IMG/VR virus record: IMGVR_UViG_3300030099_004882
Coordinates: 1-40,983 of that record
Strand: one strand, 5' to 3'
Length of the DNA stretch: 40,983 nucleotides
Source of the DNA: a virus
Position 1 is the stretch's first letter. Every line of letters begins with the position of its first letter. This document shows, piece after piece, positions 2 through 22,899 of the stretch. A program made the position numbers and the translations under genes. Under the pieces are notes generated by a model. It was given only the letters and a program-made list of their open reading frames with translations. It was not told the DNA's origin and made no database searches.

Positions 2-3000
2 AAGAAACGTCAGCCTGGCGACAGAACTTCTATGGGTGGCGTCATGGTGTTCGTTCCCGGTGTGAACGTGGACAACACGCAGATCGCCAGAGTTCTCAAG
101 GGTGTCAAGAACAAAGACATCAACCCGCTGGTGCAGCAGGTGTCCAACGGCACGATCATCACCTTCGCTAACTTTGCACCAGAAGCACAGATCAGCTTGG
201 ACGAGGTCGCACAGATTCGAGACGCATCTACAAATGAGTTTGGCGACAGTATCCGTGTCTCTAGTCCCGATGAAATTGCAATCGAGGGCGGGTACATACT
301 GCCCTTCGGTGATGAATGGAACAACAAGGGTTATCCGAACGGCCAAATCGGACCATCCGAGGCTGACATCATCACCCGTGAAAACGAAATCATTCTCGAA
401 GCAGCAGAGAATGAAATTGATTCCGGTTCTTGGTATGATGGATTGGTTGTCACCGAGGGTGGCACAGAGGTAATGGAGGATGAGGCCAAGTTCCTCAAGC
501 GTCAAGAGAAGTTTACTCGGGCGCTCGAGAAAGCTCGCAAGGCACGACGCAAAGCGGAGTCTGCTTACGACGCCGCCGTCGAGTCGGGTGATGCAGCCGC
601 AGTCCAGGAAGCAAAAGAAGAAAGAGCCCTGCGTCGCACTGAAGAACGCAAGGCGAAAGGTGAACTAGATGGCAACAGAAGACAACCAAAACGAAGCCGT
701 GGACTCAGCAGTGTCCAAATCAAACTCATTGAACAAGTCGCCCCAACCCGAGCAGACAAGCTCGCCCTCATCGCCCCGTCCGTCACGGCCACCGGTGGGA
801 CCTCTGGTCGCGCGGGACGAGCTGCCACTCGAGAAGTATGGGGACGTATTGCCGCCCTCGATTCGGATGACCGAGGAAGAATTGTCTCAGCTCTTGGCCG
901 AAGTCGAGGGTTCCGCCTTCATCATGTTCGATCGTCCATTCGCGCGCACCGGGCCGACTTCCTCCGAAGCCAACAACAGTCCAACGATGAAGTCGCCAAC
1001 TCCATCAGCAAGCGAACCGGCGGAGACATCGCCTTCGCCAGAAAGCGACCAGACAACCACGACTACTACGCCTACGCAAGAGTAGATACTCGAGGTAGTT
1101 CTGGTGCTCCTCGCAAAAGTCTCGTAGATGACCGGGACGAGCAGAATGCCAGAGAGGCAATCAAGTACCTGAGCAGCGACAAGTCTGGTCGTGTTATTGG
1201 CGCTTTGCTTTATGGCATCAGCGACTGGCGTGGCATGAGCGACGACGCTTGCAAGTTTGCCGCCAAAAGAATCGCCCAACTCTTCGAGCCAGACGCTTCC
1301 GGACGTGAGGCCGAGTTTACACCTGGTATTGATGCATTCAACTTGGGGACAGGTCTCTCGCAAACTGACGAGTTTGGAAGAGTGATTGGACCGGAAGAGG
1401 GCCGGCTGATTCAGCTTACTGAGCGGTTGGTTTATCACCCGAACGACGCACTGGCTGACGAGGTTGAGGATTGCGAGTACGTCAGTGATGTGCTTGAGCT
1501 TGGGCTCCGCCTTGATCCGCGTGCCAAGATGGAAGCTCGGTTGACCAAGCTGTGGGATCTCATCCAACAGGAGCCTGAGGGTGATCACCGTGACCGTGCT
1601 GAGATGGCTTGGTATGCAATCAAAGACGCACAAGAAGCGGTTCTCAAGTTTGTTGAACCACAGATTGCGGCACAAAAAGACGTGGCCCGGCAAATCATCG
1701 ACAGCGGGGTAGATGTCCGCATCCCGTTTGATACTGGAGTTGCAATTGGTATTGCGTTCTGGCATCCACCGTTTGAATTTAGAGCAGGTGTAAAGGGTGG
1801 GTTTATTCAGGACGGCGGTCGCAGTTACTTCAGAAATCACCCCGCCTCCAAGCTCAACGCTAAAACCTTTGGCAAGAAGGGGCTCATTGTGTTTGGGCCA
1901 CAACCTTGGATAGAGAGAAGGAGAGAACACTACGCCTACAGCGAAGGCATGGCGTCCAAGCCTGAACATTGCATTGGGGTTCACTCGCATCATTGGCTTG
2001 GTGTCGTGCTGCACGAACTCACACATGGCCGAACCATGCTGACGATTCAAGATGAGCTGATCCGAGTCTTGGGCGGCACAGACGCCGGTGCTGATCAGGA
2101 GCTCGAACACGGTCAAGACACCGTCATCCACACAACAAGAGTCAAATCTGTATCTGGGCAACAAGACAAAGAAATCATTCAGTTTGTTGAGCCAAGATCC
2201 ACTCCAGAAGGCAGGAAGGCCGCGAACCTCCGCCAGGTCAATGGAACAAATCCCGAGACCCTGCTCTACAAAGACCTGTCGGTCGCTATGTCTTACTTGA
2301 TGTCTCCTCTTAACAATCAGCGACCTTGGATGCGGGCACTGCTGATTGCATATGTAGCCCAAGCTCACTTCCACGCCAGTCCCTCAGAGGCAGTCAAGAT
2401 TGATCCAGAGATGGGTCTTGACCCCAACACCCCCGGTCGCGATTTGCTCGGAGACCGTGTGGATGTGGGGTACATGTGCAGCAACCTGGTCGAGTTTGTT
2501 GCTCAGTGCATGCAGCACCGTCAACTTCAACAAACCTTGGCGCACATGGCCATCATTGACACAGCTGATCCAAAAAATGTCGGCAAGAGTTTGAGTCCAA
2601 TCGCACCAATGCTTGGTGATCAAAGCCAGGGCAACGATGTTTACTTCCAAGTTATGGAGTTGGACGAGGGCGACATCCACCTGATTGACAAAGGCAACAC
2701 CGGTATGGGCGCAGTGCTTGAGGCTGTCGCTGCTTCGTTGGGCATCGACAACCGCGCCATCGTTGACAACTCGGGACGTGAACGAACGGTGCTGGAACTG
2801 GCACTTGCAAGTCTGCACCACTTGATGCAGAACGCACCGACTCACACCGTCAACCTTCACAAGGCACGAGCCAAGAAGTTGCAAGGTGCTCAGACTGCTG
2901 AGAAGCAGGGCAACAAAAGACCTGACGTACCCCCCCTGGTGTACGCACGGGACAACGCCAACGTCGGTAAGACTCGGTACATGTTCGTCTACAAGACGCA

Positions 3001-6000
3001 GTTCAGGGGTGACCCAGGCACTGCGGACGATGGCCGATCTGCCCGAGTTGCGTACCACCGCGACCGCGTCATGATCTTCGCCAACACTGAGGAAGAAGCG
3101 AGAGAGCAGTTCAGGCGACGGGCCAAGACTGACGAGTTCAGGCAGCCCTTGTACGACCAGCTCCCTGATAGTTTGGTCGTGGCAATCATGGACCGCAACA
3201 TGCCTGAGTACCGCAGGCCAGCGGTTCGGGTCGAGCGTGTCTATGACATGGGTGTTGTTGAATCGACTGACTCTGCATTCGCACGAGACCCTGGCTTCCG
3301 TGAGGCTGACCGAGAACGATTGAACCAAGAGAAGCGAGCACGGGCCCGTGTTGGCGACTCTCTTGATGCGATGATGGCAACGATCATGGGTCGTGAGAAG
3401 CAGAGGCTTGCCGACCGTAAGGGTACACGGCCAGACGTTGCTGCTCTTGCCGGCGTCATCGCTGGAGCTGACGCTCAGAAAGCCCTGAGCAAAGCAGACC
3501 AGAAAGCGGCGCTCGATGATCAACTCCGACGCATGCGTCAACGTGCGGCTGATCTCAAGGCCAAACGTGTGAAGATTGAGACCGCACGACAAGAGACTCG
3601 CAAGTTCATCCAAAAGAATTTGCCAGTTGCTTTGCGTGGCAAGCTGCTCACCAAGTTGACTCAAGCTAAAACAGAGGCAGCTCTGCTCAAGGTTGAGAAA
3701 GAGGTCATGCTGGTTGCAGCACAAGGCCGCATGCGTGAGGCCACGGTCAAGTTCAACAAGAAAGCCAAGGGTCTTCTCCGCAAGGGCGTGAAGATGTCGG
3801 ATGAAACCCGACAGAAGATCAATCAAATCACAGCACAGGCAGAAGCTTTGCTCAAGCTTTTTAAGAAGCAGCCTGAAGCTGCACGTTTGTCTGAGTACGA
3901 GGGTGATTTGCAGGCTCTCGAAGAGCTGCATACCGAGCTGGACTTAGCCATCCAGGACGACCGTGATCTGCAAAAGCAGAATCGACGAGAGTTCAACGAG
4001 AAGGTTGACTCAGGCAAGAGCTCCGTCCTTGGCAAGATGGCCGAGCGTAAGGGTGAAGCTCCCGTTGGTCCAGGTGGCGTGACACAAAGCAGCATGTTCG
4101 GCATGGCTCAACGTGGTGGTCTTGACCTGGAGTCGATCTTGAAGCTGGTCGGTCTTGACTTCATCTGGGACAGCTTGGTGGCGGCAGAGTCTGCGATGCT
4201 TTCTCGACGCCGTGAGACCATGAACAAGATGGACGAGGCTGTACGTCGAGCAGGCTTCAGAGACTTAGCAGACTTCCGAGCTCGCACCAGCATGACTCGA
4301 GGTCGGGCCATGGTTGGTACACGATCCGTCATTCTTGGCGGACGCAAAATCGAGTTGACCATGGGCCAGTATCTCAAGCTGTTGGCCATGGACAATGAGA
4401 CTTTGGAGATGATCGCTAAGCGTGGACAGATGTCACTGCGTGTCGGTCCTGCCGGCGAAGGCACGATTGTCTCTGGAGACAACCTGCTCGATGACATCCT
4501 GAAGATTCGCAAACTTGCAGAGCCACGGCTTGTCCGCCTGGTGAGCGACATGAAGGACATTCGTGAGACTGATCTTCGTGCGCCAGCCATGGGCATTTTG
4601 TACCGCATGACTGGCCGCATGCCTCCCCAGGTGGCAGGCTACGAGCCACGCTCAGCCGAGCAAGTTACTGCCCAGTCTGCCCTCGACCGTCTGCTGAACA
4701 GCGACAACGTCATGCAAATCTTTGCAGAGAACGCAGGGTTCACCAAGCAGCGTGGCCGCAACACCATTCCGGTAGTGTCCGACTTTACGTCCGATTACTT
4801 GGACCACCTGGATAGCTCACTTGAGCTGGCCCATATGGCTGAGCCCACACGCCTGGCGTGGACTATCCTGACTGACCCAGATGTACGTCGTGCCATCACG
4901 GCCAAATTTGGCAGCCAACAGTACGACCGCATTTTGAAGCACGTCGGGTATGCCACTCGAGTCTTGCCGGCACGTGGTGACAAGATGCTCGGAGCCCTTG
5001 CACCGGTGACCGGCGGCATCCTGGTGCTCAGCCCCACCAGTTGGGGACGAATCTTTTTCGGCGGCCTTAACTCCCTGATGATCACCATGGGTGCGGGCGA
5101 GATGGCTGGTGCTACTGCTAAGGTTATGCAACGTCTGGTGACTGGCGACTTCAACCGATTCTTCAAAGAAGACGTTGCAGGTCGGTCGGGCTATCTCTGG
5201 GATCGAGATTCCAGCAACGCCGTGGATCGTCGGGTTGTCTTCAATCGTGACGATGGGGCATCAGGCATGGCGGACATGGTTCAGTTCTTGGACGTCATGA
5301 ACGACATCATCACCAACATAGCCCGTGCTGGGCGAGCAGCTCGCGATGGAAACATGTCTATTGCACGCGAGCACCTAGCGCAAACGGCAAAATCAGTAGG
5401 TTCTGTGAGCAAAGCGATCCCAACTCTGCGTCTTTTGGATCGGTTTATCGTGGCGGTTGCGGTTCAAGCAGAGATGACCAGGCGGAAAGAGAGCACCCCG
5501 TCAGCCGAGACCATCAGCGCCGCCGAGAACCACATCCGACGCACCCAGAACACGTCGTCCCCCCTGGATGACTCCAACGTCACGGCAAACATGCGTGCCG
5601 ATGGCAGCTTCAGCCAAGCGTTCTTGACCTTTACGTCCGATCCTATGAAGACATACTCCAGAATCTATGAGCCCGACGTCACTAAGGGGAGACGAACTCG
5701 TGCTGCTGCGGTGTCGATTGCTGGTAACGCTGCCATCAACATTGGCGTGACGTATCTCTGGAAGATGTTGCTCGCCTCGCTGTATGACGACGAGGATGAG
5801 AAGGAACAAATCCTTGCCGAGGTCCACCGACAGAAGGCAAGTGATCGGGCGTTGGACATGTGGATCGAGGAAGCTCTGGTCCGGACATCGCCGTTCCCAG
5901 TGCTCACCTTCCTGGCATCGCGACCGTTGGCCGGCATCATTGCCGAGCAGGTTGAAGCATTCCGTGAGGGTCGTGACGTCAGGGACGAGGGCCGCTACCT

Positions 6001-6340
6001 GGAGTCATCCTTCCAGAACGTGGGCTTCGGCGTGGGGTTGAGCACCTTGCGTAAGACGCAGCAAACCTTGCAAACTCCAGACCCAGATAAATCCACGGAG
6101 TACCTGGAGCAAGCGTCGGTTGACTTGTTGACTTTGATGGGCGTGCCCGCCCGGTCACCATTCCAGATGCTGGAGATTCTGATGACCGGGGCGAGCCCTG
6201 CCGAATTGCGTACGGCTGAATATCAGCTTCGCGAGGCTGGCGTTGAGTTCACTGAAGAGCAAAAAGAAATCTTCAAGTGGGCCAGGGATGAGTCTAAGCG
6301 TCACCGTGAGGAGCGTCAGTCTCTTCGGGAGGGTAGATGA
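2..6340 (+). CDS. Giant polyvalent virion protein, C-terminal part (partial at window start)
   Basis: The frame is open from base 2, so the start lies outside the window; the ATG at 32 has no Shine-Dalgarno and is probably internal. Numbering from that ATG there are about 2,100 residues. A zincin-like metallopeptidase motif, HELTH, sits at residues 661-665 (bases 2012-2026), with a possible third zinc ligand E821 in a SNLVEFVAQ helix. A long charged helical and coiled-coil stretch covers bases 3380-4010. Hydrophobic segments lie at about 4985-5130 and 5700-5790. The FLTFTSDPMK-type region near the end resembles the LPD38-like C-termini of phage polyvalent proteins (family assignment from memory). 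The motif IAFAR occurs at 1028-1042. Such proteins are ejected with DNA or sit inside the capsid; that role is inferred from family and position. It is probably continuous with the open frame at 35871-40983. Its last 47 bases overlap the convergent gene at 6294-6587. Confidence 0.85.
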   Translation, partial: KKRQPGDRTSMGGVMVFVPGVNVDNTQIARVLKGVKNKDINPLVQQVSNGTIITFANFAPEAQISLDEVAQIRDASTNEFGDSIRVSSPDEIAIEGGYILPFGDEWNNKGYPNGQIGPSEADIITRENEIILEAAENEIDSGSWYDGLVVTEGGTEVMEDEAKFLKRQEKFTRALEKARKARRKAESAYDAAVESGDAAAVQEAKEERALRRTEERKAKGELDGNRRQPKRSRGLSSVQIKLIEQVAPTRADKLALIAPSVTATGGTSGRAGRAATREVWGRIAALDSDDRGRIVSALGRSRGFRLHHVRSSIRAHRADFLRSQQQSNDEVANSISKRTGGDIAFARKRPDNHDYYAYARVDTRGSSGAPRKSLVDDRDEQNAREAIKYLSSDKSGRVIGALLYGISDWRGMSDDACKFAAKRIAQLFEPDASGREAEFTPGIDAFNLGTGLSQTDEFGRVIGPEEGRLIQLTERLVYHPNDALADEVEDCEYVSDVLELGLRLDPRAKMEARLTKLWDLIQQEPEGDHRDRAEMAWYAIKDAQEAVLKFVEPQIAAQKDVARQIIDSGVDVRIPFDTGVAIGIAFWHPPFEFRAGVKGGFIQDGGRSYFRNHPASKLNAKTFGKKGLIVFGPQPWIERRREHYAYSEGMASKPEHCIGVHSHHWLGVVLHELTHGRTMLTIQDELIRVLGGTDAGADQELEHGQDTVIHTTRVKSVSGQQDKEIIQFVEPRSTPEGRKAANLRQVNGTNPETLLYKDLSVAMSYLMSPLNNQRPWMRALLIAYVAQAHFHASPSEAVKIDPEMGLDPNTPGRDLLGDRVDVGYMCSNLVEFVAQCMQHRQLQQTLAHMAIIDTADPKNVGKSLSPIAPMLGDQSQGNDVYFQVMELDEGDIHLIDKGNTGMGAVLEAVAASLGIDNRAIVDNSGRERTVLELALASLHHLMQNAPTHTVNLHKARAKKLQGAQTAEKQGNKRPDVPPLVYARDNANVGKTRYMFVYKTQFRGDPGTADDGRSARVAYHRDRVMIFANTEEEAREQFRRRAKTDEFRQPLYDQLPDSLVVAIMDRNMPEYRRPAVRVERVYDMGVVESTDSAFARDPGFREADRERLNQEKRARARVGDSLDAMMATIMGREKQRLADRKGTRPDVAALAGVIAGADAQKALSKADQKAALDDQLRRMRQRAADLKAKRVKIETARQETRKFIQKNLPVALRGKLLTKLTQAKTEAALLKVEKEVMLVAAQGRMREATVKFNKKAKGLLRKGVKMSDETRQKINQITAQAEALLKLFKKQPEAARLSEYEGDLQALEELHTELDLAIQDDRDLQKQNRREFNEKVDSGKSSVLGKMAERKGEAPVGPGGVTQSSMFGMAQRGGLDLESILKLVGLDFIWDSLVAAESAMLSRRRETMNKMDEAVRRAGFRDLADFRARTSMTRGRAMVGTRSVILGGRKIELTMGQYLKLLAMDNETLEMIAKRGQMSLRVGPAGEGTIVSGDNLLDDILKIRKLAEPRLVRLVSDMKDIRETDLRAPAMGILYRMTGRMPPQVAGYEPRSAEQVTAQSALDRLLNSDNVMQIFAENAGFTKQRGRNTIPVVSDFTSDYLDHLDSSLELAHMAEPTRLAWTILTDPDVRRAITAKFGSQQYDRILKHVGYATRVLPARGDKMLGALAPVTGGILVLSPTSWGRIFFGGLNSLMITMGAGEMAGATAKVMQRLVTGDFNRFFKEDVAGRSGYLWDRDSSNAVDRRVVFNRDDGASGMADMVQFLDVMNDIITNIARAGRAARDGNMSIAREHLAQTAKSVGSVSKAIPTLRLLDRFIVAVAVQAEMTRRKESTPSAETISAAENHIRRTQNTSSPLDDSNVTANMRADGSFSQAFLTFTSDPMKTYSRIYEPDVTKGRRTRAAAVSIAGNAAINIGVTYLWKMLLASLYDDEDEKEQILAEVHRQKASDRALDMWIEEALVRTSPFPVLTFLASRPLAGIIAEQVEAFREGRDVRDEGRYLESSFQNVGFGVGLSTLRKTQQTLQTPDPDKSTEYLEQASVDLLTLMGVPARSPFQMLEILMTGASPAELRTAEYQLREAGVEFTEEQKEIFKWARDESKRHREERQSLREGR

Positions 6341-12145: not shown

Positions 12146-12417
12146 TCGACCACCTCGCATTCGGTCTCGATGCTTCCGCCCCAGTCGTATGATCGGTTGC
12201 ATTGATCCGTGCCGACGAACACCTTCTTGGGGTCATCGTTGTCGTACTGGATGCAGGCAGCCTCTTGGGTCTTCTCGATCAGGTCATCGGCCAAGCCGTC
12301 ATCCTCGATGTCGATGATGAGTTCCTCGGGGTCTTGCCCCTCAGGCACGTCCATGTAGACCTCGGTGGTCTCGCAGACGGTGGCATATTCGGTTCGCGTG
12401 ATTTTGATTCTTGGCAT
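12142..12417 (-). CDS. Hypothetical 91-aa acidic protein
   Basis: The ATG at 12417 follows AAAGGGA. The acidic product begins with strands (RIKITRTEYATVCETTEVYM), followed by DPEELIIDIEDDGLADDLIE and a Cys-containing C-terminal part ending ETECEVVE. It shows weak similarity of layout to its neighbour at 11930-12145. No family recognised. Its stop overlaps the next start as ATGA. Confidence 0.6.
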   Translation of the reverse strand: MPRIKITRTEYATVCETTEVYMDVPEGQDPEELIIDIEDDGLADDLIEKTQEAACIQYDNDDPKKVFVGTDQCNRSYDWGGSIETECEVVE

Positions 12418-12419
12418 AG

Positions 12420-12656
12420 TCAGTTTCCCTTTCTCATTGCGTTGGCAATGGCTTGCTTGACGCCGTCGTTGGTCATCAGGGTGTCGATGTGTCCATCAAG
12501 CACGTCGATCAGATAGATCACTCGGTCTTGCGCGTCGCTGTGAAATGCGCTGTCAATCGTGCCGTCAAGATGCTTCACCGGAAATCCAAGTTGATCAAGG
12601 ATCGACTCGAGGGTGTCGGCGTCTTGCGCCCATGGTGATGGTTCTTCAATATTCAT
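12420..12656 (-). CDS. Hypothetical 78-aa acidic protein
   Basis: The start at ATG 12656 is chosen by comparison: in five genes of this region the initiation codon lies 9-10 bases after the same GGAG within a shared leader, and 12656 fits while the ATG at 12662 is too close. The product is acidic with TLESILDQLGFPVKHLDG and DRVIYLIDVLDGHIDTLMTN segments and no recognised family. It is the first gene after leader copy A and is followed at once by the tightly overlapped string of unknown genes. Confidence 0.6.
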   Translation of the reverse strand: MNIEEPSPWAQDADTLESILDQLGFPVKHLDGTIDSAFHSDAQDRVIYLIDVLDGHIDTLMTNDGVKQAIANAMRKGN

Positions 12657-12733
12657 GGTCATAGTTCTCCGTTGGGCAGGGTCGCCCATCCCGCCCCCTC
12701 CGAAGAGGGAGCAGGTGGGGGATCGTGCATTGA
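12657..12733 (-). promoter_or_regulatory. Leader element copy A (two hairpins plus SD)
   Basis: Read on the minus strand, this intergenic block has a distal hairpin CCCTC-TTCG-GAGGG (12709-12696), closed as C(UUCG)G, a very stable RNA tetraloop. A proximal hairpin GGGC-GACCCT-GCCC (12687-12674) follows, then GGAGAA and the start codon. Copies C and D share almost the whole block, including CCCCCACCTG upstream of the first hairpin. Likely a regulatory leader acting on translation. Confidence 0.65.
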
Positions 12734-13018
12734 TCATCCGTTGATGACCCGGTCGATGCATTCATTCAACACTTCCCAGTCCCAATCGAAAAGGTCAGCG
12801 ATTTCAAGTTGAGTTGCCACACGGTTCCACTGCTCGTCGGTCAGTGGCGGCTCGTCTCTCTCCTCCCGATCATCGTCTATGTCGGCCTTGCACCACATGA
12901 CTGGGACGCCAAGTCGATGCCCATCTTCGGACACGGCGGCAATGGTCTCGAGCAGGTCGCGGTTTGGATCATCTTGGGGTACGAGGTCAAGCCATGTTGC
13001 TGAATTAGTGTTGGTCAT
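12734..13018 (-). CDS. Hypothetical 94-aa acidic protein
   Basis: The start at ATG 13018 is set by the shared leader (GGAGAACCGACC just upstream). The product is very acidic, with DDDREERDEPPLTDEQWNRV followed by QLEIADLFDWDWEVLNEC. Such Asp/Glu/Trp-rich small early proteins sometimes mimic DNA or bind host enzymes, but there is no direct evidence here. It is the first gene behind the best promoter of this block, so it may be expressed early and strongly. Confidence 0.65.
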   Translation of the reverse strand: MTNTNSATWLDLVPQDDPNRDLLETIAAVSEDGHRLGVPVMWCKADIDDDREERDEPPLTDEQWNRVATQLEIADLFDWDWEVLNECIDRVING

Positions 13019-13047
13019 TGGTCGGTTCTCCGTGGGCACAATCGCCC
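13019..13047 (-). promoter_or_regulatory. Leader element copy B (5'-terminal hairpin plus SD)
   Basis: On the minus strand GGGC-GATTGT-GCCC (13047-13034) is followed by two bases and GGAGAA. If the promoter at 13054-13081 fires 7 bases after its -10 box, the transcript would begin exactly at the first G of this hairpin, giving a structured 5' end directly ahead of the ribosome site. Confidence 0.6.
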
Positions 13048-13053
13048 GAAATC

Positions 13054-13081
13054 ATTTTAAGGTGCAATTGATCGTTGTCAA
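13054..13081 (-). promoter_or_regulatory. Sigma70-type promoter
   Basis: On the minus strand a perfect TTGACA (-35, 13081-13076) is separated by 16 bases from TAAAAT (-10, 13059-13054, five of six consensus bases) in an AT-rich pocket unlike the surrounding GC-rich DNA. It reads leftward into 12734-13018 and the downstream genes. This is the most convincing promoter in the window. Confidence 0.65.
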
Positions 13082-13094
13082 GCATAATACTTGA
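13078..13094. promoter_or_regulatory. Palindromic operator candidate over the -35 box
   Basis: TCAAG-CATAATA-CTTGA is a perfect inverted repeat with 5-base arms and a 7-base spacer, overlapping the -35 hexamer of the leftward promoter. This placement is typical of repressor operators. The remaining bases 13095-13113 carry nothing further that I can identify. Confidence 0.4.
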
Positions 13095-13113
13095 AAATAA
13101 TCAGGGATCTTCA

Positions 13114-13314
13114 TCAGTCGCCGAGCATCGACTTGAGGTTGTCAATGTTGAGTTGCCGGGCTCGGATGGCCTGCTCGGTGGCGTCCTCGTCAACGCAGCC
13201 CTCGTCCGTCAGTACAACGATCTGGGCATTACGAAGCAGTTCGATCTGCTCCTCGATGCACTGGATCGCAAAGCGGATCCACGTCTTCTCTGGCTTGTTC
13301 AATTTGGTCTTCAT
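13114..13314 (-). CDS. Hypothetical 66-aa helical protein
   Basis: The start at ATG 13314 follows the shared GGAGAATACGACC leader. The product is helical, with a basic N-terminus (KTKLNKPEKTWIRFAIQ), a middle helix (CIEEQIELLRNAQIVVL) and a C-terminal helix (TEQAIRARQLNIDNLKSML). No family recognised. It lies immediately upstream of the promoter region and may therefore end a separate transcription unit. Confidence 0.6.
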   Translation of the reverse strand: MKTKLNKPEKTWIRFAIQCIEEQIELLRNAQIVVLTDEGCVDEDATEQAIRARQLNIDNLKSMLGD

Positions 13315-13393
13315 GGTCGTATTCTCCGTGGGCAGGTCAGGGTCGCCCAGTCCGCCCACTGCTCCGACACAGTGGACAGGTGGGGGATCGTGA
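13315..13393 (-). promoter_or_regulatory. Leader element copy C (two hairpins plus SD)
   Basis: On the minus strand the distal stem is CCACTG-loop-CAGTGG (13375-13356, 8-base loop). The proximal stem is GGGC-loop-GCCC (13348-13330) with an 11-base loop, then GGAGAA. The distal arms differ from copies A and D on both sides yet remain fully complementary, which is compensatory change supporting a folded RNA. Confidence 0.65.
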
Positions 13394-13837
13394 TCAGCCG
13401 CCGTATGGGTATTTCTCAGGCTCAGGCCAGTAGTCCCACGCGGGCGCGCCGTCGATCATCTTCACCCAGCCAGCACCAGCATCCAGCCCGGTGCTACTCG
13501 AGGATCTAAGCATCTGATCGTCGATGGCAGCGAGCATCAGGGTCATCGTGGTCTGGCTGATGTGGCCTTTGCGAAGGCACTCCTCGAGCATCTTCTCAAC
13601 GCCAGCACGGTCGGTCTTGATCCGGACGCCCCGGTGATCAAACCCGGCCTCATGGCCGAGTTGACTCAGGGTCGGCTTGATGTCGTGGAATCCGACTTGA
13701 ACCAAGTATCGAGTACCGCCCATGAAGGTGGACTTCTTGCGATATTGGATCTCGACGAGCAGTTGGCAATCGCGTCTGGCACGGACTTTCAGTCGGCTGT
13801 GTGCGTCGTAGAATGAAATAGATTCTGGGGTGGTCAT
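13394..13837 (-). CDS. Hypothetical 147-aa protein
   Basis: The ATG at 13837 follows the shared leader (AAGGAGAATTACGACC). The N-terminal half is beta-rich and basic (SRLKVRARRDCQLLVEIQYR, GTRYLVQVGFHD), followed by a helical region (AGVEKMLEECLRKGHISQ, MTLMLAAIDDQML) and a C-terminal tail rich in Trp, Pro and Tyr. No known motif is visible. It is bracketed by leader copies D (upstream) and C (downstream). Confidence 0.65.
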   Translation of the reverse strand: MTTPESISFYDAHSRLKVRARRDCQLLVEIQYRKKSTFMGGTRYLVQVGFHDIKPTLSQLGHEAGFDHRGVRIKTDRAGVEKMLEECLRKGHISQTTMTLMLAAIDDQMLRSSSSTGLDAGAGWVKMIDGAPAWDYWPEPEKYPYGG

Positions 13838-13917
13838 GGTCGTAATTCTCCTTGGGGCAGGGTCGCCCAGTCCGCCCCCTCCGCAGAGGGGACAGGTGGG
13901 GGATCGTGCAGGTGGGA
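13838..13917 (-). promoter_or_regulatory. Leader element copy D (two hairpins plus SD)
   Basis: On the minus strand the distal stem is CCCCTC-TGCG-GAGGGG (13891-13876). The proximal stem is GGGC-GACCCT-GCCC (13868-13855), then AAGGAGAA and the start codon. It is the closest relative of copy A, with the distal loop and one outer pair changed. Confidence 0.65.
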
Positions 13918-14235
13918 TCAGTCCTCGGCTTCGGTGTCGTACAACTCGATCTCGCAGGGCATCGCATAGCCCGACTTGAGACCAGCGTAGATGCCGTGCC
14001 TGTTCAGTTCATCGACCCGATCCTTCAGGTCATCCCAACTGATGCTGTCGTCGCAGACCTCGAACTTGATCCACATCTTGAAGTCATCGGTCTGGGTGGA
14101 CGAGTCCCATTCGTGGTAACCAGCACCCATATCAAACATCCGAACAGGGATCATCATTTTCTTGGTGATGCCGCTGATGACGGACAGCAGTTCGTTGGCT
14201 TTGGTCGAGGAAACAAATACTTTCAGGTAACGCAT
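13918..14235 (-). CDS. Hypothetical 105-aa protein, first gene of the leftward block
   Basis: The ATG at 14235 follows GGAGAATTGCGACC. The product starts with a strand (RYLKVFVSSTKANELLSVIS) and a helix, then MIPVRMFDMGAGYHEW and a WIKFEVCDDSISWDDLKDRV section. This could be a compact ferredoxin-like alpha/beta fold, but no family is recognised. As the promoter-proximal gene of the leftward operon it is likely an early protein. Confidence 0.65.
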   Translation of the reverse strand: MRYLKVFVSSTKANELLSVISGITKKMMIPVRMFDMGAGYHEWDSSTQTDDFKMWIKFEVCDDSISWDDLKDRVDELNRHGIYAGLKSGYAMPCEIELYDTEAED

Positions 14236-14265
14236 GGTCGCAATTCTCCAAGGGCATCATCGCCC
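14236..14265 (-). promoter_or_regulatory. Leader element copy E (hairpin plus SD)
   Basis: On the minus strand GGGC-GATGAT-GCCC (14265-14252) precedes TTGGAGAA and the ATG of the first leftward gene. It has only the proximal hairpin, like copy B, and both B and E are the copies with a promoter candidate immediately upstream. Confidence 0.6.
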
Positions 14266-14435
14266 ACAAGGCAAGAAGATAACCGCCAACACATTGCCAA
14301 TCAAGACAATTGCCAAAGATTTTTTTGTTCGGGTTCTGTACGGGTCGAGCCTATCCAGCGTACAACCCCCATTCACGCCCAACCATCGCGGTCGCCGGGC
14401 AACCAACCAGTAGAGCCAGTAGAGGAGCAGAGCCA
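14266..14435. other. Divergent intergenic region between early and virion operons
   Basis: About 170 bases separate the leftward first gene from the small terminase gene. It contains two exact copies of ATTGCCAA (14293-14300 and 14309-14316) spaced 16 bases start to start, and a run of seven T at about 14320. A rightward promoter must lie here or upstream, but I could not pick convincing -35/-10 boxes. The paired 8-mers are on the face-to-face spacing expected for a binding protein or a small iteron set. Confidence 0.4.
14276..14304 (-). promoter_or_regulatory. Candidate leftward promoter
   Basis: On the minus strand TTGATT (14304-14299) lies 17 bases from TATCTT (14281-14276); each matches four of six sigma70 consensus bases. 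A start about 7 bases on would fall within a few bases of the copy E hairpin. Weak boxes, but the position is right for the first gene of the leftward block. Confidence 0.3.
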
Positions 14436-15092
14436 ATGCCTCGAGCACGCATAGACCACCAGCCCCACCCGCAGCCCGCAGCCAGCCACCACCAGCACCA
14501 CAGTCAACACGCGCACGAGGAGCAGGCGCAGCCAGCCCCCCCGCCAGCCAGCGAGCAGGGCACTGGCCAGCCAGCCGCCAGCGATGGGGGGGGTAGGCTT
14601 GCAGGTCAGCCGCAGGCAAGCCATGCACAGGGTTCCCGCAAGAGAGGGGACTCGGACAGCACACCAACAAAACAGCTCAGGCAGTGGGAGACCAAGCGAA
14701 TCCCGTACCTGGAGGCCCGCAGGCAGGGCTGGTCTGCCGCCGAGGCATGTCGAATGATTGATCTGAACTACGACACCATGCGAAGCTGGCGAATCCGGCA
14801 GGAGGGCTTCCGTGAGGAGGAGGCTGAAGCCGAGGGTCAGGGCGATCAGGCGATGATGGACATGCTTCGGGGCTTGGCTTTGTCTGCCGAGGACGAGCGA
14901 AACAAGATCCGTGCGGCTGAGGTTTGGCTGCGTGCCCGGTTGCCCCGGATCGAGCGGGTCGAGCTCTCGGGTCCCAACGGGGGTCCGATTATGGGTATTG
15001 GTGCAGGTTCGGACGCTGTTAGGGCTGCGGCCCAGGCGTGGGCTGGTAAGTTGGACTTCGACCAGAAAGAACTTCCGAGTGAATCAGACTGA
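14436..15092 (+). CDS. terS: Small terminase subunit with low-complexity N-terminus
   Basis: TerS binds the packaging site on phage DNA and feeds the motor. The ATG at 14436 follows AGAGGAG; the upstream extension through a TTG at 14310 has no good ribosome site. The first 85 residues or so are a Pro/Ala/His/Gln/Ser-rich tract of unusual length. Then comes a helix-turn-helix (YLEARRQGWSAAEACRMIDL, NYDTMRSWRIRQEGF) typical of TerS DNA-binding domains, a helical oligomerisation region (EDERNKIRAAEVWLRARLP) and a short acidic tail. It directly precedes and overlaps TerL by 14 bases, the classic terS-terL order. Identification rests on position and the HTH. Confidence 0.75.
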   Translation: MPRARIDHQPHPQPAASHHQHHSQHAHEEQAQPAPPPASEQGTGQPAASDGGGRLAGQPQASHAQGSRKRGDSDSTPTKQLRQWETKRIPYLEARRQGWSAAEACRMIDLNYDTMRSWRIRQEGFREEEAEAEGQGDQAMMDMLRGLALSAEDERNKIRAAEVWLRARLPRIERVELSGPNGGPIMGIGAGSDAVRAAAQAWAGKLDFDQKELPSESD

Positions 15093-16833
15093 TATCCAGA
15101 ACATCCGGCTGGTCTTGGCTGGCGCAAAAGAGCCCGAAGAGTTCGGGTGGGGGCCTGCTGACGTGGCGGCGTGGGCGGAACTGGCCGCCGGGGACCCCGT
15201 GGCGTTTGTAACGCTGGGTGTTTGGTCTCGGCGGGTCAAGATCGTGGACGAAGTGACTGGCGAGGAGCGGCCTGCCGAGCACAAGCTGGTCCCGTTCATC
15301 CCGTGGCCGGCCCAGATCAAGATGATCCGGATGATGTCCGGGTGCGTCGAGAGCGGTCGGGACATGGCGGTGGCCAAGAGCCGGGAGACCGGGGTGTCGG
15401 TGCTAAGCACGGCCCTGTCAGTCTGGGGCTGGCTGTTCAAAGGCTGGGATGTACTGCTGTGTTCGCGGACTGAAGCCTTGGTGGACCGGACTGGTGACCC
15501 CGATACGCTGTTTGCCAAGGTCGAACACGTCATCAAGTACCTTCCACCGTCCTGGTTGCCGTGTCCTTTGGTGGATCTGCTGCCAGGTGGGAAGCGAAGA
15601 CGCCACTGCATCCTTGAACATCCTGACGGGAACGCGATCACTGGTGAAGCCACGACGTCCCACATCGGTCGGGGTGCTCGGAAGACGGTGGTCCTGTTTG
15701 ACGAGGCCGCGTCCCAGGACAGATTCGAGGAGGGATGGCGTTCTGCGGCAGATACCGCTGCGAGCCGCTGGGCCGTCTCTACGCACCTTGTAGGCTCATA
15801 CTTCACTGGGACCCTCTGGGAGACCGCAAAGGCCACACACGACCCTCAGGACCTGCTATTGACCTATGTCGATGACCCCGACAAGTCGGCGGGGGGTGAG
15901 GCTCGGGTTGATGTCGATGGTTCGATCACTGGGGACCCCGGACGCGGGTACTGGTGGTCACCTTGGCTTGAGCGTCAGATGAAGCGACGGGACGTCCATG
16001 ACCTCCGTGAGAACGTCTTCGCCTTGCCGTCTAGCCGTGGTCGAAGCTTCTTCCCCGTGGTGGACCTCGAACGACAGCGTCAGTACACCCGCAAACCTCG
16101 CCGATGCGAGGCTGTTCGTGGAGACCTTGTGGATAACCCAACCGGACGTTGGAGGATCTTCCAGGAGCCAGACGAGCATTCAGTGCTGTGTGCGTTCATG
16201 GACCCGGCGTACGGAACCGGGGCGGCGAACGCCTGCTGCGTGATGATGGATGTCAACCAGCGTGAGGTCGTGGCGACGTTTGTGGACCCCGCGATCCCAC
16301 CATATGACCTGGCCCGTGAGGTGGTCGGGGCTGCTCGAAGCTGGGCCCGAGGCCGGGCGGACATGATGATCGGATGGGAAGTCAACGGACCTGGTGCATC
16401 CATGCAGCACGACTTTGAGCGGCTGCGTTGGTACAACGTGTTCCACCATCGGCGACTGGGACAACGTGTCGAAAGCCGTTCAAAACGTGTCGGATGGACT
16501 TCTACGCGGGTTACGAAGCGAGTTTTGTTTGGTGACCTAGCCCGTGCAATTGCTGACGACACAGTGATCTGCCCGGACGCTGAGATCCTGGATGAGATGG
16601 AATCGACCGTGATCTACAAGGACGGGGGCATCGGCCCAGCCAGGCTGGAGATCGACGTCAGCTCAGGGGCCCGTGATGCTCACGGTGACCGGGTCATTGC
16701 ATTTGGCGGATGCGTCATGCTTTTGGGTGAGGTGAACCCAGACAGCGAAAGACCCGTACACGATTACGGCAAGCCTGACTTCTCGTGGCGTACGATGTTG
16801 AATATGGATAACGATATCGTCATGGATGAGTAA
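15079..16833 (+). CDS. terL: Terminase large subunit
   Basis: 584 residues from a GTG at 15079 that overlaps the terS stop; no ATG is suitably placed. It is the ATPase-nuclease that pumps and cuts DNA at the portal. The ATPase domain has a Walker A-like AKSRETGVS at about residue 98 and Walker B VVLFDEAA at about residue 205, with the coupling segment VGSYFTGTLW downstream. The RNase H-like nuclease domain has FMDPAYGTG (first catalytic Asp), GWEVNGPG (second acidic residue) and AHGDRVIAFGG (third Asp region). Length is normal. The virion operon starts here. Confidence 0.92.
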   Translation: MNQTDIQNIRLVLAGAKEPEEFGWGPADVAAWAELAAGDPVAFVTLGVWSRRVKIVDEVTGEERPAEHKLVPFIPWPAQIKMIRMMSGCVESGRDMAVAKSRETGVSVLSTALSVWGWLFKGWDVLLCSRTEALVDRTGDPDTLFAKVEHVIKYLPPSWLPCPLVDLLPGGKRRRHCILEHPDGNAITGEATTSHIGRGARKTVVLFDEAASQDRFEEGWRSAADTAASRWAVSTHLVGSYFTGTLWETAKATHDPQDLLLTYVDDPDKSAGGEARVDVDGSITGDPGRGYWWSPWLERQMKRRDVHDLRENVFALPSSRGRSFFPVVDLERQRQYTRKPRRCEAVRGDLVDNPTGRWRIFQEPDEHSVLCAFMDPAYGTGAANACCVMMDVNQREVVATFVDPAIPPYDLAREVVGAARSWARGRADMMIGWEVNGPGASMQHDFERLRWYNVFHHRRLGQRVESRSKRVGWTSTRVTKRVLFGDLARAIADDTVICPDAEILDEMESTVIYKDGGIGPARLEIDVSSGARDAHGDRVIAFGGCVMLLGEVNPDSERPVHDYGKPDFSWRTMLNMDNDIVMDE

Positions 16834-19267: not shown

Positions 19268-20145
19268 TGGCAGAAGACACACAACCAGAGTTCACGCCAG
19301 AAGAAGAAGAAATTCTTGGCCGTATTATTGACCAAAAAGAGGCCAATGCCGCCAAGGCAGCAGAATTTGCTGAAAAATCTGGGGAACAAACCTCAGACGA
19401 CGGCGTACAGACTGAACAACCCAAGGATCTCACGCTGACACCCGAACGAGTACGCGCACTCAAGCGGGCGAAAGTACCTGAGGCAGTGCTCGACAAGTTT
19501 GCGGACTCACCTGAGTCGCTTTCTGAATGGGCCGACACCCTCATGGAGATGCAAGGGAACGTGGATGGCTACTCTGAGAAGATGCGCCATCTTGAAGAGC
19601 AAGTCGCAGCTCAGGATAACCAATCCAAAAGCGACACAACGCGGACTGCGGAACCAAGCAGCGCACCTGACGACCCCGAACCAACGGAAGTCGCCGAGAC
19701 TGAAGACAAAAGTCCTGAGTTGGAAGCAGCAAACCAGTTGCAGTCAGCCCCAGACCGGAGTCAGAAGTTACTTGTGGAGACCCTGATTGGCGAGATTGCC
19801 AAGCTGCGGATTGATGAAGCTCTGAAGTCCTATGACGATGTCACAGACCGCGAAAGAGCCCATATCGCAGAACGCATGACCGCTTTGTATGACGGGAATC
19901 CAGGTGAATTCAACGGCATTGAAAGCTTAGCCAAGCGTGCCGTCACAGAGGTTATGGGAGTTCCGAAGTCGCAGGCTGCGGACAGGTCAACATCAGTGGA
20001 TCCGGCAAGAGTATCTACCCCGCCGAAAGGCACATCAGTAAAATCTGAACGGCCACTGACACCTGACGAAGCAGACGAAATCGCACTCGACATCATCCTC
20101 AATGGCGGTTCTAAAGAAGACGCAAGGCGAGCCACAATGCGATAA
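19267..20145 (+). CDS. Scaffolding protein
   Basis: 292 residues, start at ATG 19267 in TAATG overlap. The sequence is strongly acidic and mostly helical, with a Glu-rich N-terminus (EFTPEEEEILGRIIDQKEAN), a central disordered Ser/Asp/Glu/Pro stretch (about 120-165) and a C-terminal helical end (DEADEIALDIILNGGSKEDA). This composition and the position immediately before the major capsid gene are the hallmarks of phage scaffolds, which guide capsid assembly and then leave. No protease domain is visible, so scaffold removal may not need proteolysis. Confidence 0.8.
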   Translation: MAEDTQPEFTPEEEEILGRIIDQKEANAAKAAEFAEKSGEQTSDDGVQTEQPKDLTLTPERVRALKRAKVPEAVLDKFADSPESLSEWADTLMEMQGNVDGYSEKMRHLEEQVAAQDNQSKSDTTRTAEPSSAPDDPEPTEVAETEDKSPELEAANQLQSAPDRSQKLLVETLIGEIAKLRIDEALKSYDDVTDRERAHIAERMTALYDGNPGEFNGIESLAKRAVTEVMGVPKSQAADRSTSVDPARVSTPPKGTSVKSERPLTPDEADEIALDIILNGGSKEDARRATMR

Positions 20146-20149
20146 ACCC

Positions 20150-20163
20150 GCCCCGCAAGGGGC
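20150..20163 (+). other. GCAA-loop hairpin upstream of the capsid gene
   Basis: GCCCC-GCAA-GGGGC is a five-pair GC stem with a GNRA tetraloop, in the 42-base gap between scaffold and major capsid, just ahead of the CAAGGAG ribosome site. It has no T run, so it is more likely a stabilising 5' structure or RNA-processing end than a terminator. Confidence 0.5.
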
Positions 20164-20187
20164 TAGTCCCTTTCAAGGAGTTTTATC

Positions 20188-21561
20188 GTGGCAGGAACCC
20201 ACATTAAGAACTTCCTCGATTTCATGGAGGCGACTGGCCCGGTATATCTCACCGGACCTGACGTTCTCATCAACGAAGCAGTTAAGCGTAACTACCTCTT
20301 CGGTGATTTGATTCGAGAGAAGAACCAGGCCATCCAAGGTGGCAACGAGATTCGTGACGTCCTCATGTTCGATGACGCACGGTCATTCCAGTTCTATCAA
20401 CCAAACGAGACCTTCACCTACAGCAATCCGCAGGTGATGGACACCATCACAGCCAACTGGCGATTCTCGATGGACCACATGACCTTCACCGACGCAGAAG
20501 TAGAACTGCAAGGTGGAGCCGGTCTGTCCGCAGATGCAACCAAGGCTATGTACAAGAACCTGAAGCGTTCCAAGGAACAGCGAATGGTGACCTCCATGGT
20601 CAACGGCTTTGAAGAAGCTTTGTTCAAGCCAACGCAAGGCAACTTCTCTGAAATGGAAACCGAGAGTGGCAAGCATCCATACTCGATTCCTTCCTTGATC
20701 ACTGAAGTTTGCGTTCAAACTGAGCTTGATGGCGGCGGTGCTAACGGTGTTCGTGGTGGTCGTCCAGTCGGTTGCTCCGGCAACTTGCTCGGTATTGACC
20801 CAGATTCCGAAGATCGTTGGACCAACGAAGTTGTGTTCTACGACACGACCGCAACCCAAGCCATCAGTGACGCTGGTGTACTTGGCGGTGGAGGCAGTGC
20901 ATCCTTTGACGGTTCTAAGGCAGTCATCGACTACGCCTCTGTCACCGGAACGATGCCGTACAACAACTTCGCTGCCATCAACGTGTTCAGCTACTTGGGC
21001 GCGTTTGACGAGATGTACTTGCGGCTTCAGTTCCGTCCGCCCCCGACCTTCGAGGCGTACTTCGAGAACATCGTGTTCAACCGTCAGAAGATTCTCTGCT
21101 CCCGTGAAGGTTTGAACCTTTACAAGCAGGCTCTTCGTGCTAGCAACGACCGTTCGTTTGCTCCGCAAGACATGGCTTACAACCAGCCCACCTACTCTGG
21201 TGTGCCGTTGACCTACGTTGCTGAGTTGGACACCGCAGCTATTTACCCAGCTGCAACTGTGGGAACCGCTGCCCAGTATCAAGCAACCGAACTTGCTGCT
21301 TTGACTTTGGATAGCTCCGCTGGTGCTACCGAGCTCGGTGCAAATGTCATCCAGCCTGGTCCTCGTTACCACTTCATCAATGGTGATTACCTCACTCCTG
21401 TGATCCACTCCAACCGATACATGGAGAAGCACGAAGTGATGCGTCACCCAAATCAACCGTTTACCTACGTCCAAATCACGGACTGCTGGTACAACATTCT
21501 TGCAAACTCACGTCAGCGTCACGGCATCCTTGCCCCGACTGTCACCGACGTGACCGGATAA
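20188..21561 (+). CDS. Major capsid protein
   Basis: 457 residues from GTG 20188, with AAGGAG at good spacing. The protein follows the scaffold gene and precedes a decoration-type gene, the standard head order. It has the layout of HK97-fold capsid proteins: a long N-terminal helix (IKNFLDFMEATGPVYLTG), an E-loop-like basic/acidic section (IREKNQAIQGGNEIRDVLMF), a central helix (SKEQRMVTSMVNGFEEALF) and a beta-rich C-terminal half. It lacks an obvious cleavable pro-region. Exact capsid subfamily not recognised; the assignment is by position, size and composition. Confidence 0.85.
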   Translation: MAGTHIKNFLDFMEATGPVYLTGPDVLINEAVKRNYLFGDLIREKNQAIQGGNEIRDVLMFDDARSFQFYQPNETFTYSNPQVMDTITANWRFSMDHMTFTDAEVELQGGAGLSADATKAMYKNLKRSKEQRMVTSMVNGFEEALFKPTQGNFSEMETESGKHPYSIPSLITEVCVQTELDGGGANGVRGGRPVGCSGNLLGIDPDSEDRWTNEVVFYDTTATQAISDAGVLGGGGSASFDGSKAVIDYASVTGTMPYNNFAAINVFSYLGAFDEMYLRLQFRPPPTFEAYFENIVFNRQKILCSREGLNLYKQALRASNDRSFAPQDMAYNQPTYSGVPLTYVAELDTAAIYPAATVGTAAQYQATELAALTLDSSAGATELGANVIQPGPRYHFINGDYLTPVIHSNRYMEKHEVMRHPNQPFTYVQITDCWYNILANSRQRHGILAPTVTDVTG

Positions 21562-22044: not shown

Positions 22045-22063
22045 TTGATCTAACGATCACACG

Positions 22064-22091
22064 GGAGATGGGGGCTACCGCCCCCTTCTCC
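22064..22091 (+). terminator. Strong GC hairpin after the head genes, terminator-like
   Basis: GGAGA-T-GGGGGC-TACC-GCCCCC-T-TCTCC forms 11 pairs with one T-T mismatch, followed by TCTTCCT. The U content after the stem is modest, so termination would be partial. It lies eight bases before the next start codon and no clear ribosome site remains for that gene. It could therefore both reduce transcription beyond the capsid genes and limit initiation of 22099-22899. Confidence 0.5.
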
Positions 22092-22098
22092 TCTTCCT

Positions 22099-22899
22099 AT
22101 GCCGATTACCGTACAACGAGCAAAGGCTGCCGTACTTCTTGCTTGCGGTGGCAACCCTTCGACTGCCACGGGTATGACCGTGGATGAGCGTGTCGCAGAG
22201 ATCATTAACTCTGCCGGCCAGCAGTTGTTTCATCACGCTTGGACATGGAAAGAACGCACCTCTCAGGTCAAGCTTGGGTTCACAGCCGGCAGCGATGTTG
22301 TGACTTTGCCGACAGACAACGTTCTCAACGAAGTTCTGTCTGGTCAAATCATCTCGGTAGTGCCTGACGGCAACACATTTCGGACCGTTCAGTTCACGAC
22401 CCCTGAGAAGTTTGCGTCCCTCGAGGCCAACAATCTGCAACTGACAGACGGCCAGTTCTTCATTTTGGTCACAAAGCCTGACACTGATTTCGGCACAGCC
22501 ATCAGCGATTTGCGTCTTGAGATTTATCCCAAGCCAGCAAACACAGAGACATCAGCTTTGATAATCCGATATCGAAGGAACTTTCCAAACGTGCGTTCCA
22601 CGGACGTGACTGGCTCGGACACAAGTGCCAATGCGTCCCTACTGTTTGAGCTGCCGGTAGACGACATTGCCATCCCGCTATTCCTGGAGTACCTCCGGGC
22701 CTTTGGGGAAGGTGGCGAGTACGGCGACGCCAGCCAGCGTGTGGCCGCCGTCGAGGCTGGACCAATTTACGACCAAGCGTTGAGGCGTGACGGGACAACT
22801 AATCCGAACTACGGGCCCATCCCCCTGGCAGTTCGCAAAGGTTCCTCATACTCAGGATTGAATTTCTTCCCTAACGGCAACATACCGGACCCCTCTTGA
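22099..22899 (+). CDS. Head-tail adaptor / completion protein
   Basis: 266 residues starting at ATG 22099. The N-terminal helical part (VDERVAEIINSAGQQLFHHA, WTWKERTSQV) and beta-rich middle followed by LLFELPVDDIAIPLFLEYLR resemble podovirus adaptor proteins of the T7 gp11 or P22 gp4 type that dock below the portal. The location between head and tail genes agrees. No Shine-Dalgarno is visible because the upstream space is occupied by the hairpin at 22064-22091. Identification is moderate, on layout and position. Confidence 0.65.
   Translation: MPITVQRAKAAVLLACGGNPSTATGMTVDERVAEIINSAGQQLFHHAWTWKERTSQVKLGFTAGSDVVTLPTDNVLNEVLSGQIISVVPDGNTFRTVQFTTPEKFASLEANNLQLTDGQFFILVTKPDTDFGTAISDLRLEIYPKPANTETSALIIRYRRNFPNVRSTDVTGSDTSANASLLFELPVDDIAIPLFLEYLRAFGEGGEYGDASQRVAAVEAGPIYDQALRRDGTTNPNYGPIPLAVRKGSSYSGLNFFPNGNIPDPS

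Follow-up and report, generated by a model that had tools for sequence, protein, structure and literature searches.

The five leaders with GGGC and GCCC arms that stand directly before the ribosome sites of early genes in this virus are two different things, one linked to promoters (type A) and one lying between cistrons (type B). With moderate confidence we read both as portable start cassettes, the hairpins of which would shield mRNA ends or mark processing points, rather than as one shared switch. A type A cassette would run from a promoter through a short hairpin at the start of the mRNA to GGAGAA and the ATG; in type B, a stop codon would be followed by a hairpin of 16 pairs between the cistrons and then by GGAGAA and the ATG.

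Source stretch and the five leaders

The window, that is, the whole stretch of DNA analysed, was an IMG/VR virus record of 40,983 nt whose relatives are known only from environmental sequences. Its leftward early region encodes a RusA-like resolvase, an exonuclease VIII-like protein and a replication initiation protein, and terminase and portal genes lie rightward of 14.9 kb. Nine related viral records (G001-G009), few, close and in some cases only fragments, were gathered using the terminase and showed 86-98% identity across matched stretches and 89-98% in the terminase itself. Against named phages, the 11.0-15.2 kb part of the window gave no DNA match, the portal protein gave no match and the terminase gave distant matches only (29-34% identity across 33-40% of its length). 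The terminase frame in the list of open reading frames (14911-15090, plus strand) probably extends too far upstream: in the relative L128 this frame is interrupted by a stop at codon 48, and a later start, at MNESEIQ, is likely for the protein. Three further features were observed on the plus strand of the window: a 2102-aa open reading frame at 32-6340, opposite several long minus-strand frames and with no Pfam or PHROG match; a GC-rich GCCCC-GCAA-GGGGC hairpin at 20143-20188, shortly upstream of a late, capsid-like gene at 20188; and a GC-rich GGGGGC-TACC-GCCCCC hairpin followed by a pyrimidine run at 22050-22099, shortly before another late gene at 22099.

The pattern GGGCGA-N(2-14)-GCCC-N(1-5)-GGAG was found exactly five times in the window, always on the minus strand (14265, 13868, 13348, 13047 and 12687), compared with a chance expectation of 0.04; five occurrences were reached in none of 100 shuffles. 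Behind each copy stands GGAGAA and, a few bases further, an ATG. The initial annotation, which had described these five leaders before ribosome sites, was thus correct as to their existence and position. It had also taken them for one family, and here alignment of the leaders from the window and its relatives separated two kinds: the copies at 14265 and 13047 lie behind promoters, whereas those at 13868, 13348 and 12687 belong to the 3' end of a longer repeat, the copies of which begin at 13908, 13392 and 12727, respectively. The near-constant ACGACC noted before the ATG is present, but GGAGAAC(AC)GACC-ATG proved to be a start context common to the entire phage group, found at hairpin-free starts as well. 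The genes behind the five leaders, which gave no PHROG or NCBIfam match and, in Pfam, nothing above a family's cut-off, are as follows.

13918..14235, minus strand: 105-aa gene behind leader A1, function unassigned; homologues in G003 and G004 have other leaders
13394..13837, minus strand: 147-aa gene behind element B copy 1; a 91% identical homologue in G001 also has B
13114..13314, minus strand: 66-aa gene behind element B copy 2; the relatives yielded no homologue
12734..13018, minus strand: 94-aa gene behind leader A2; the homologue in G005 is without a leader hairpin
12420..12656, minus strand: 78-aa gene behind element B copy 3; homologues with A2 or leader C in relatives

Leaders and genes are unlinked among the relatives. 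The 78-aa gene is preceded by B in the window, by A2 in G001 (96% identical protein) and by leader C in G003, G004 and G007 (74%), and the 105-aa gene by A1 in the window, leader D in G003 and a diverged B in G004. Conversely, the genes that A1 precedes in the window, in G001 and in G002 are unrelated to one another. The suggestion that the leaders had spread among unrelated genes was therefore borne out, the same gene carrying different leaders across relatives.

Promoter-linked hairpins of type A

Leaders A1 and A2 sit just downstream of predicted sigma-70-like promoters, with the following arrangement.

14276..14304, minus strand: predicted promoter of leader A1, TTGATT-17-TATCTT; a weak match, its position conserved in G001 and G002
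14252..14265, minus strand: leader A1 hairpin, GGGC-GATGAT-GCCC; 11 nt past the -10 box and 2 nt before GGAGAA (p=0.024 against shuffles)
13054..13081, minus strand: predicted promoter of leader A2, TTGACA-16-TAAAAT; 11 of 12 matches
13034..13047, minus strand: leader A2 hairpin, GGGC-GATTGT-GCCC; 7 nt past the -10 box (p=0.016 against shuffles)

The GGGC of A2 begins at the predicted +1, and the GGGC/GCCC hairpins of 14265 and 13047 would form the predicted 5' end of the mRNA, as judged from promoter spacing. Type A is also present in G001, G002 and G006, and across the group six different leader hairpins occupy this promoter-proximal place. Besides A1 and A2 these are leader C (TATAAT, GAGCCC-GAG-GGGCTC, AGGAGA) in G003, G004, G005, G007 and twice in G006, where one of the two copies is without the outermost pair; leader D (GTCCG-GCGAAA-CGGGC) in G003 and G004; leader E (GAGGC-GACGATA-GCCTC) in G005 and G006; and leader F, a bulged hairpin, in G007. 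Strong predicted promoters in the early regions are followed by a hairpin 6-11 nt past the -10 box and then by GGAGA, and the hairpin started within this interval in all 13 type A leaders tested, the transcription starts themselves being predicted. These 13 hairpins were more stable than most of their dinucleotide shuffles (p=0.002-0.07).

Since the arms of A1 and A2 are invariant, covariation is absent within those types. The promoter of leaders D, E and F is recognisably the same (47-60 of 66 bases identical, 71-91%), and all three leaders are 33 nt long; only 14-20 of the 33 positions match, yet each still folds, which is what a structural, non-sequence-specific requirement predicts. Type A keeps its structure and not its letters. 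Sites of the MS2 coat or T4 RegA repressor type, which require one conserved hairpin or loop motif, were rejected on account of the unrelated hairpins found at equivalent places in relatives. The location of the inverted repeats at the predicted +1 could also be explained if they were DNA operators placed over the transcription start and bound by a repressor. We consider this very unlikely: relatives have unrelated half-sites, the stem of leader D depends on a G-U pair and that of F is bulged, both of which suit RNA better than DNA symmetry, and B is internal to operons and has no separate promoter.

The intercistronic element B

Element B is about 60 bases long and spans the gap from a stop codon to a Shine-Dalgarno site. 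Three copies were identified in the window.

13851..13908, minus strand: element B copy 1; 16-pair hairpin at 13903-13863 and competing GGGC/GCCC stem at 13868-13855; 9 nt after the stop codon
13331..13392, minus strand: element B copy 2; compensated inner stem CCACTG/CAGTGG; 1 nt after the stop codon
12670..12727, minus strand: element B copy 3; 6 nt after the stop codon

The consensus reads CACGA-Y-CCCCCA-CCTG-(stem-loop)-CGG-NN-TGGGCG-R-CCCTG. Its fold, obtained using RNAfold in combination with sequence comparison, has 16 pairs, consisting of Y-R, C-G, a C-C mismatch, CCCA/TGGG, a small internal loop and a ten-pair inner helix, which in most short variants ends in a UNCG-type loop. A covariance model recovered 14 copies in eight records (E of about 1e-20 to 1e-12). 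Paired bases occupy 98.1% of the cells of the alignment in the 16-pair fold, and half of the pairs never vary among these close relatives. Five of the 16 pairs have changed on both sides (C-G to U-A twice, A-U to G-C, C-G to A-U and C-G to G-C), a covariation score matched by none of 500 shuffles. Sliding the partner by 1-3 bases lowered the pairing to about 50%, a comparison in which the fold is favoured by having been chosen from the same sequences. The outermost Y-R pair (T/C with A/G) changes together on every inner-stem background and hence does not simply represent two inherited haplotypes. A diverged copy in L144 (5792-5849) carries two extra compensatory changes in the outer helix (A-U to G-C and C-G to U-A). 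The invariant U-G pair and the other U-G pairs, in a coding-strand reading of the sequence, would fit a sense RNA rather than a DNA palindrome.

Several searches delimited the element. In more distant records sharing one early gene (L164, L165 and L168) element B was absent. Its pattern gave one match in an unrelated viral contig (L156) and, in species genomes, a single match inside actinomycete sequence, which was ascribed to chance; the broad leader pattern gave one match per stretch among the viral-contig matches listed, and these were likewise taken as mostly chance. Rfam (4227 families) gave no match up to E=1 over positions 12300-15200 and none at the gathering score in the window and three relatives.

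B begins 1-9 nt after the stop codon in all 13 copies with an upstream gene in view, and complete copies reach as far as the Shine-Dalgarno site of the gene that follows. No promoter was found inside it, and a role as intrinsic terminator was set aside, since it has no T-run behind it. The GGGC/GCCC stem overlaps the 3' arm of the 16-pair hairpin, which uses up the GGGC. Among type B copies, 84% of the cells of this short stem are paired, a level that gives no covariation signal when set against shuffles, and GCGG/CCGC takes the place of its arms in two copies, one from G002 and one from G004. The short stem is weakly conserved in type B, and the covariation seen among the relatives belongs to the larger hairpin.

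These results bear directly on the proposal of a shared translational switch, in which a phage or host RNA-binding protein would bind GGGC-loop-GCCC and repress a set of early genes. The fixed distance to GGAGAA agrees with it, as does the ability of A1, A2 and most B copies to form one and the same stem of 4 bp, in most cases around a 6-nt loop, and the annotation was right that structured RNA leaders stand at a fixed position before the ribosome site. However, three of the five copies contain a larger covarying hairpin that draws on the same GGGC arm, and within B the short stem is disrupted in some copies and shows no covariation. Equivalent type A places in relatives hold unrelated hairpin sequences, which speaks against a single sequence-specific RNA-binding repressor, and none of the genes searched was recognised as encoding such a protein. 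We regard the shared switch as quite improbable. Nor did folding indicate that the Shine-Dalgarno site is concealed or exposed by the hairpins, since its predicted accessibility showed no consistent difference from that of shuffled leaders. It follows that neither switching or repression at this site nor its insulation is supported, which leaves protection or processing as the probable mechanism.

A second kind of switch would be confined to B: a ribosome terminating on the upstream gene would open the outer helix, allowing GGGC to pair with GCCC and coupling translation of the two genes. Because B lies 1-9 nt past the stop codon, a terminating ribosome would reach its 5' arm, and in the window copies the outer and local folds are close in energy (predicted probabilities of 0.70/0.18, 0.16/0.81 and 0.37/0.61). 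In several relatives, however, the outer helix is dominant (0.88-0.96) or the GCCC arm is absent, and Shine-Dalgarno accessibility is predicted to be middling throughout, as in shuffled leaders. Two-state switching of B is thus possible according to the folding model but not conserved, and as an account of the element it appears rather improbable. Similarly speculative, and with as little chance of being correct, is the idea that B represents a new class of structured intercistronic RNA, which would sense the departing upstream ribosome, refold from the outer helix to the GGGC/GCCC hairpin so as to govern how the following gene is translated or processed, and move between genes as a cassette.

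Truncated copies of B abutting promoter A2, without a start codon behind them, were observed in G001 (L139, 5859-5916) and G006 (L142, 101-158). Both have lost part of the outer pairing and, to judge from their sequence, look like scars of deleted genes. Such apparent deletion scars, together with the unlinking of genes and leaders, might indicate that the repeats are mainly recombination boundaries, serving as linkers for swaps of early genes without a regulatory role. This is unlikely, in that pure linkers would neither maintain pairing through compensatory changes nor keep a hairpin while its letters change; a linker function and a structural role can nevertheless both hold.

With the start-cassette reading, the hairpins would work through their structure. 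We infer transcription starts, stabilisation and processing, stabilisation by precedent from other systems: type A, at the 5' end, would shield the message from 5'-end-dependent decay of the RppH/RNase E type, and B, between cistrons, would act as an exonuclease barrier, as an endonuclease (RNase III type) processing point or as both. Each early gene would thereby obtain its own stable, independently translated message segment.

Comparison with known systems and significance

In the early region of T7, the intercistronic RNase III sites consist of homologous hairpins with internal loops that recur between one early gene and the next. Element B resembles these sites in being a hairpin with an internal loop between adjacent early cistrons, and by analogy it may be cleaved; it differs from them in being shorter and in running right up to the Shine-Dalgarno site.

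For type A, the relevant precedents are the 5' stabiliser hairpins. In E. coli a hairpin at the 5' end impedes RppH and stabilises the mRNA, and in B. subtilis hairpins at or near the 5' end are likewise stabilising (reviewed in PMC3997798). The hairpins of type A, at starts that are predicted, would resemble the stabilisers of ompA and papA (PMC3997798) in standing close to the 5' end of the message and immediately upstream of the ribosome site; they differ in that many different short hairpins are found within one phage group.

The closest layout is that of the SAS and ESAS repeats of cluster K mycobacteriophages, which occupy a comparable place, although the leaders described here are not members. 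SAS are short repeats just upstream of the ATG of unrelated genes in the non-structural half of the genome (Pope et al., 2011, PMC3203893), and are defined by the 13-bp consensus GGGATAGGAGCCC, with up to two changes, 3-9 bp before the start. In a subset, the SAS is extended upstream by an imperfect 17-bp inverted repeat (ESAS), which in Adephagia contains a SigA-like promoter (PMC11373665); the function is unproven, and according to the authors departures in the repeats do not generally support RNA pairing (PMC3203893). Both systems place repeats at the starts of unrelated genes, and the promoter of the Adephagia ESAS parallels type A. However, the SAS consensus includes the Shine-Dalgarno sequence itself and has no sequence in common with the present leaders, which read GGGCGA-N-GCCC-N-GGAGAA. 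B has an inverted repeat without a promoter, and type A has a promoter with arms of 4-6 bp downstream of it, so that neither corresponds to an ESAS. ESAS are largely tied to gene families, whereas the leaders here are not, and RNA pairing has little support in ESAS, whereas element B covaries.

Gene-start repeats of the SAS/ESAS kind have had no proven function since 2011, and in the present system covariation points to RNA structure. As the same gene occurs in nature with three different leaders, cause and effect could be tested using reporters. The start-cassette reading would suggest that phages protect their early messages with interchangeable 5' and intercistronic hairpins.
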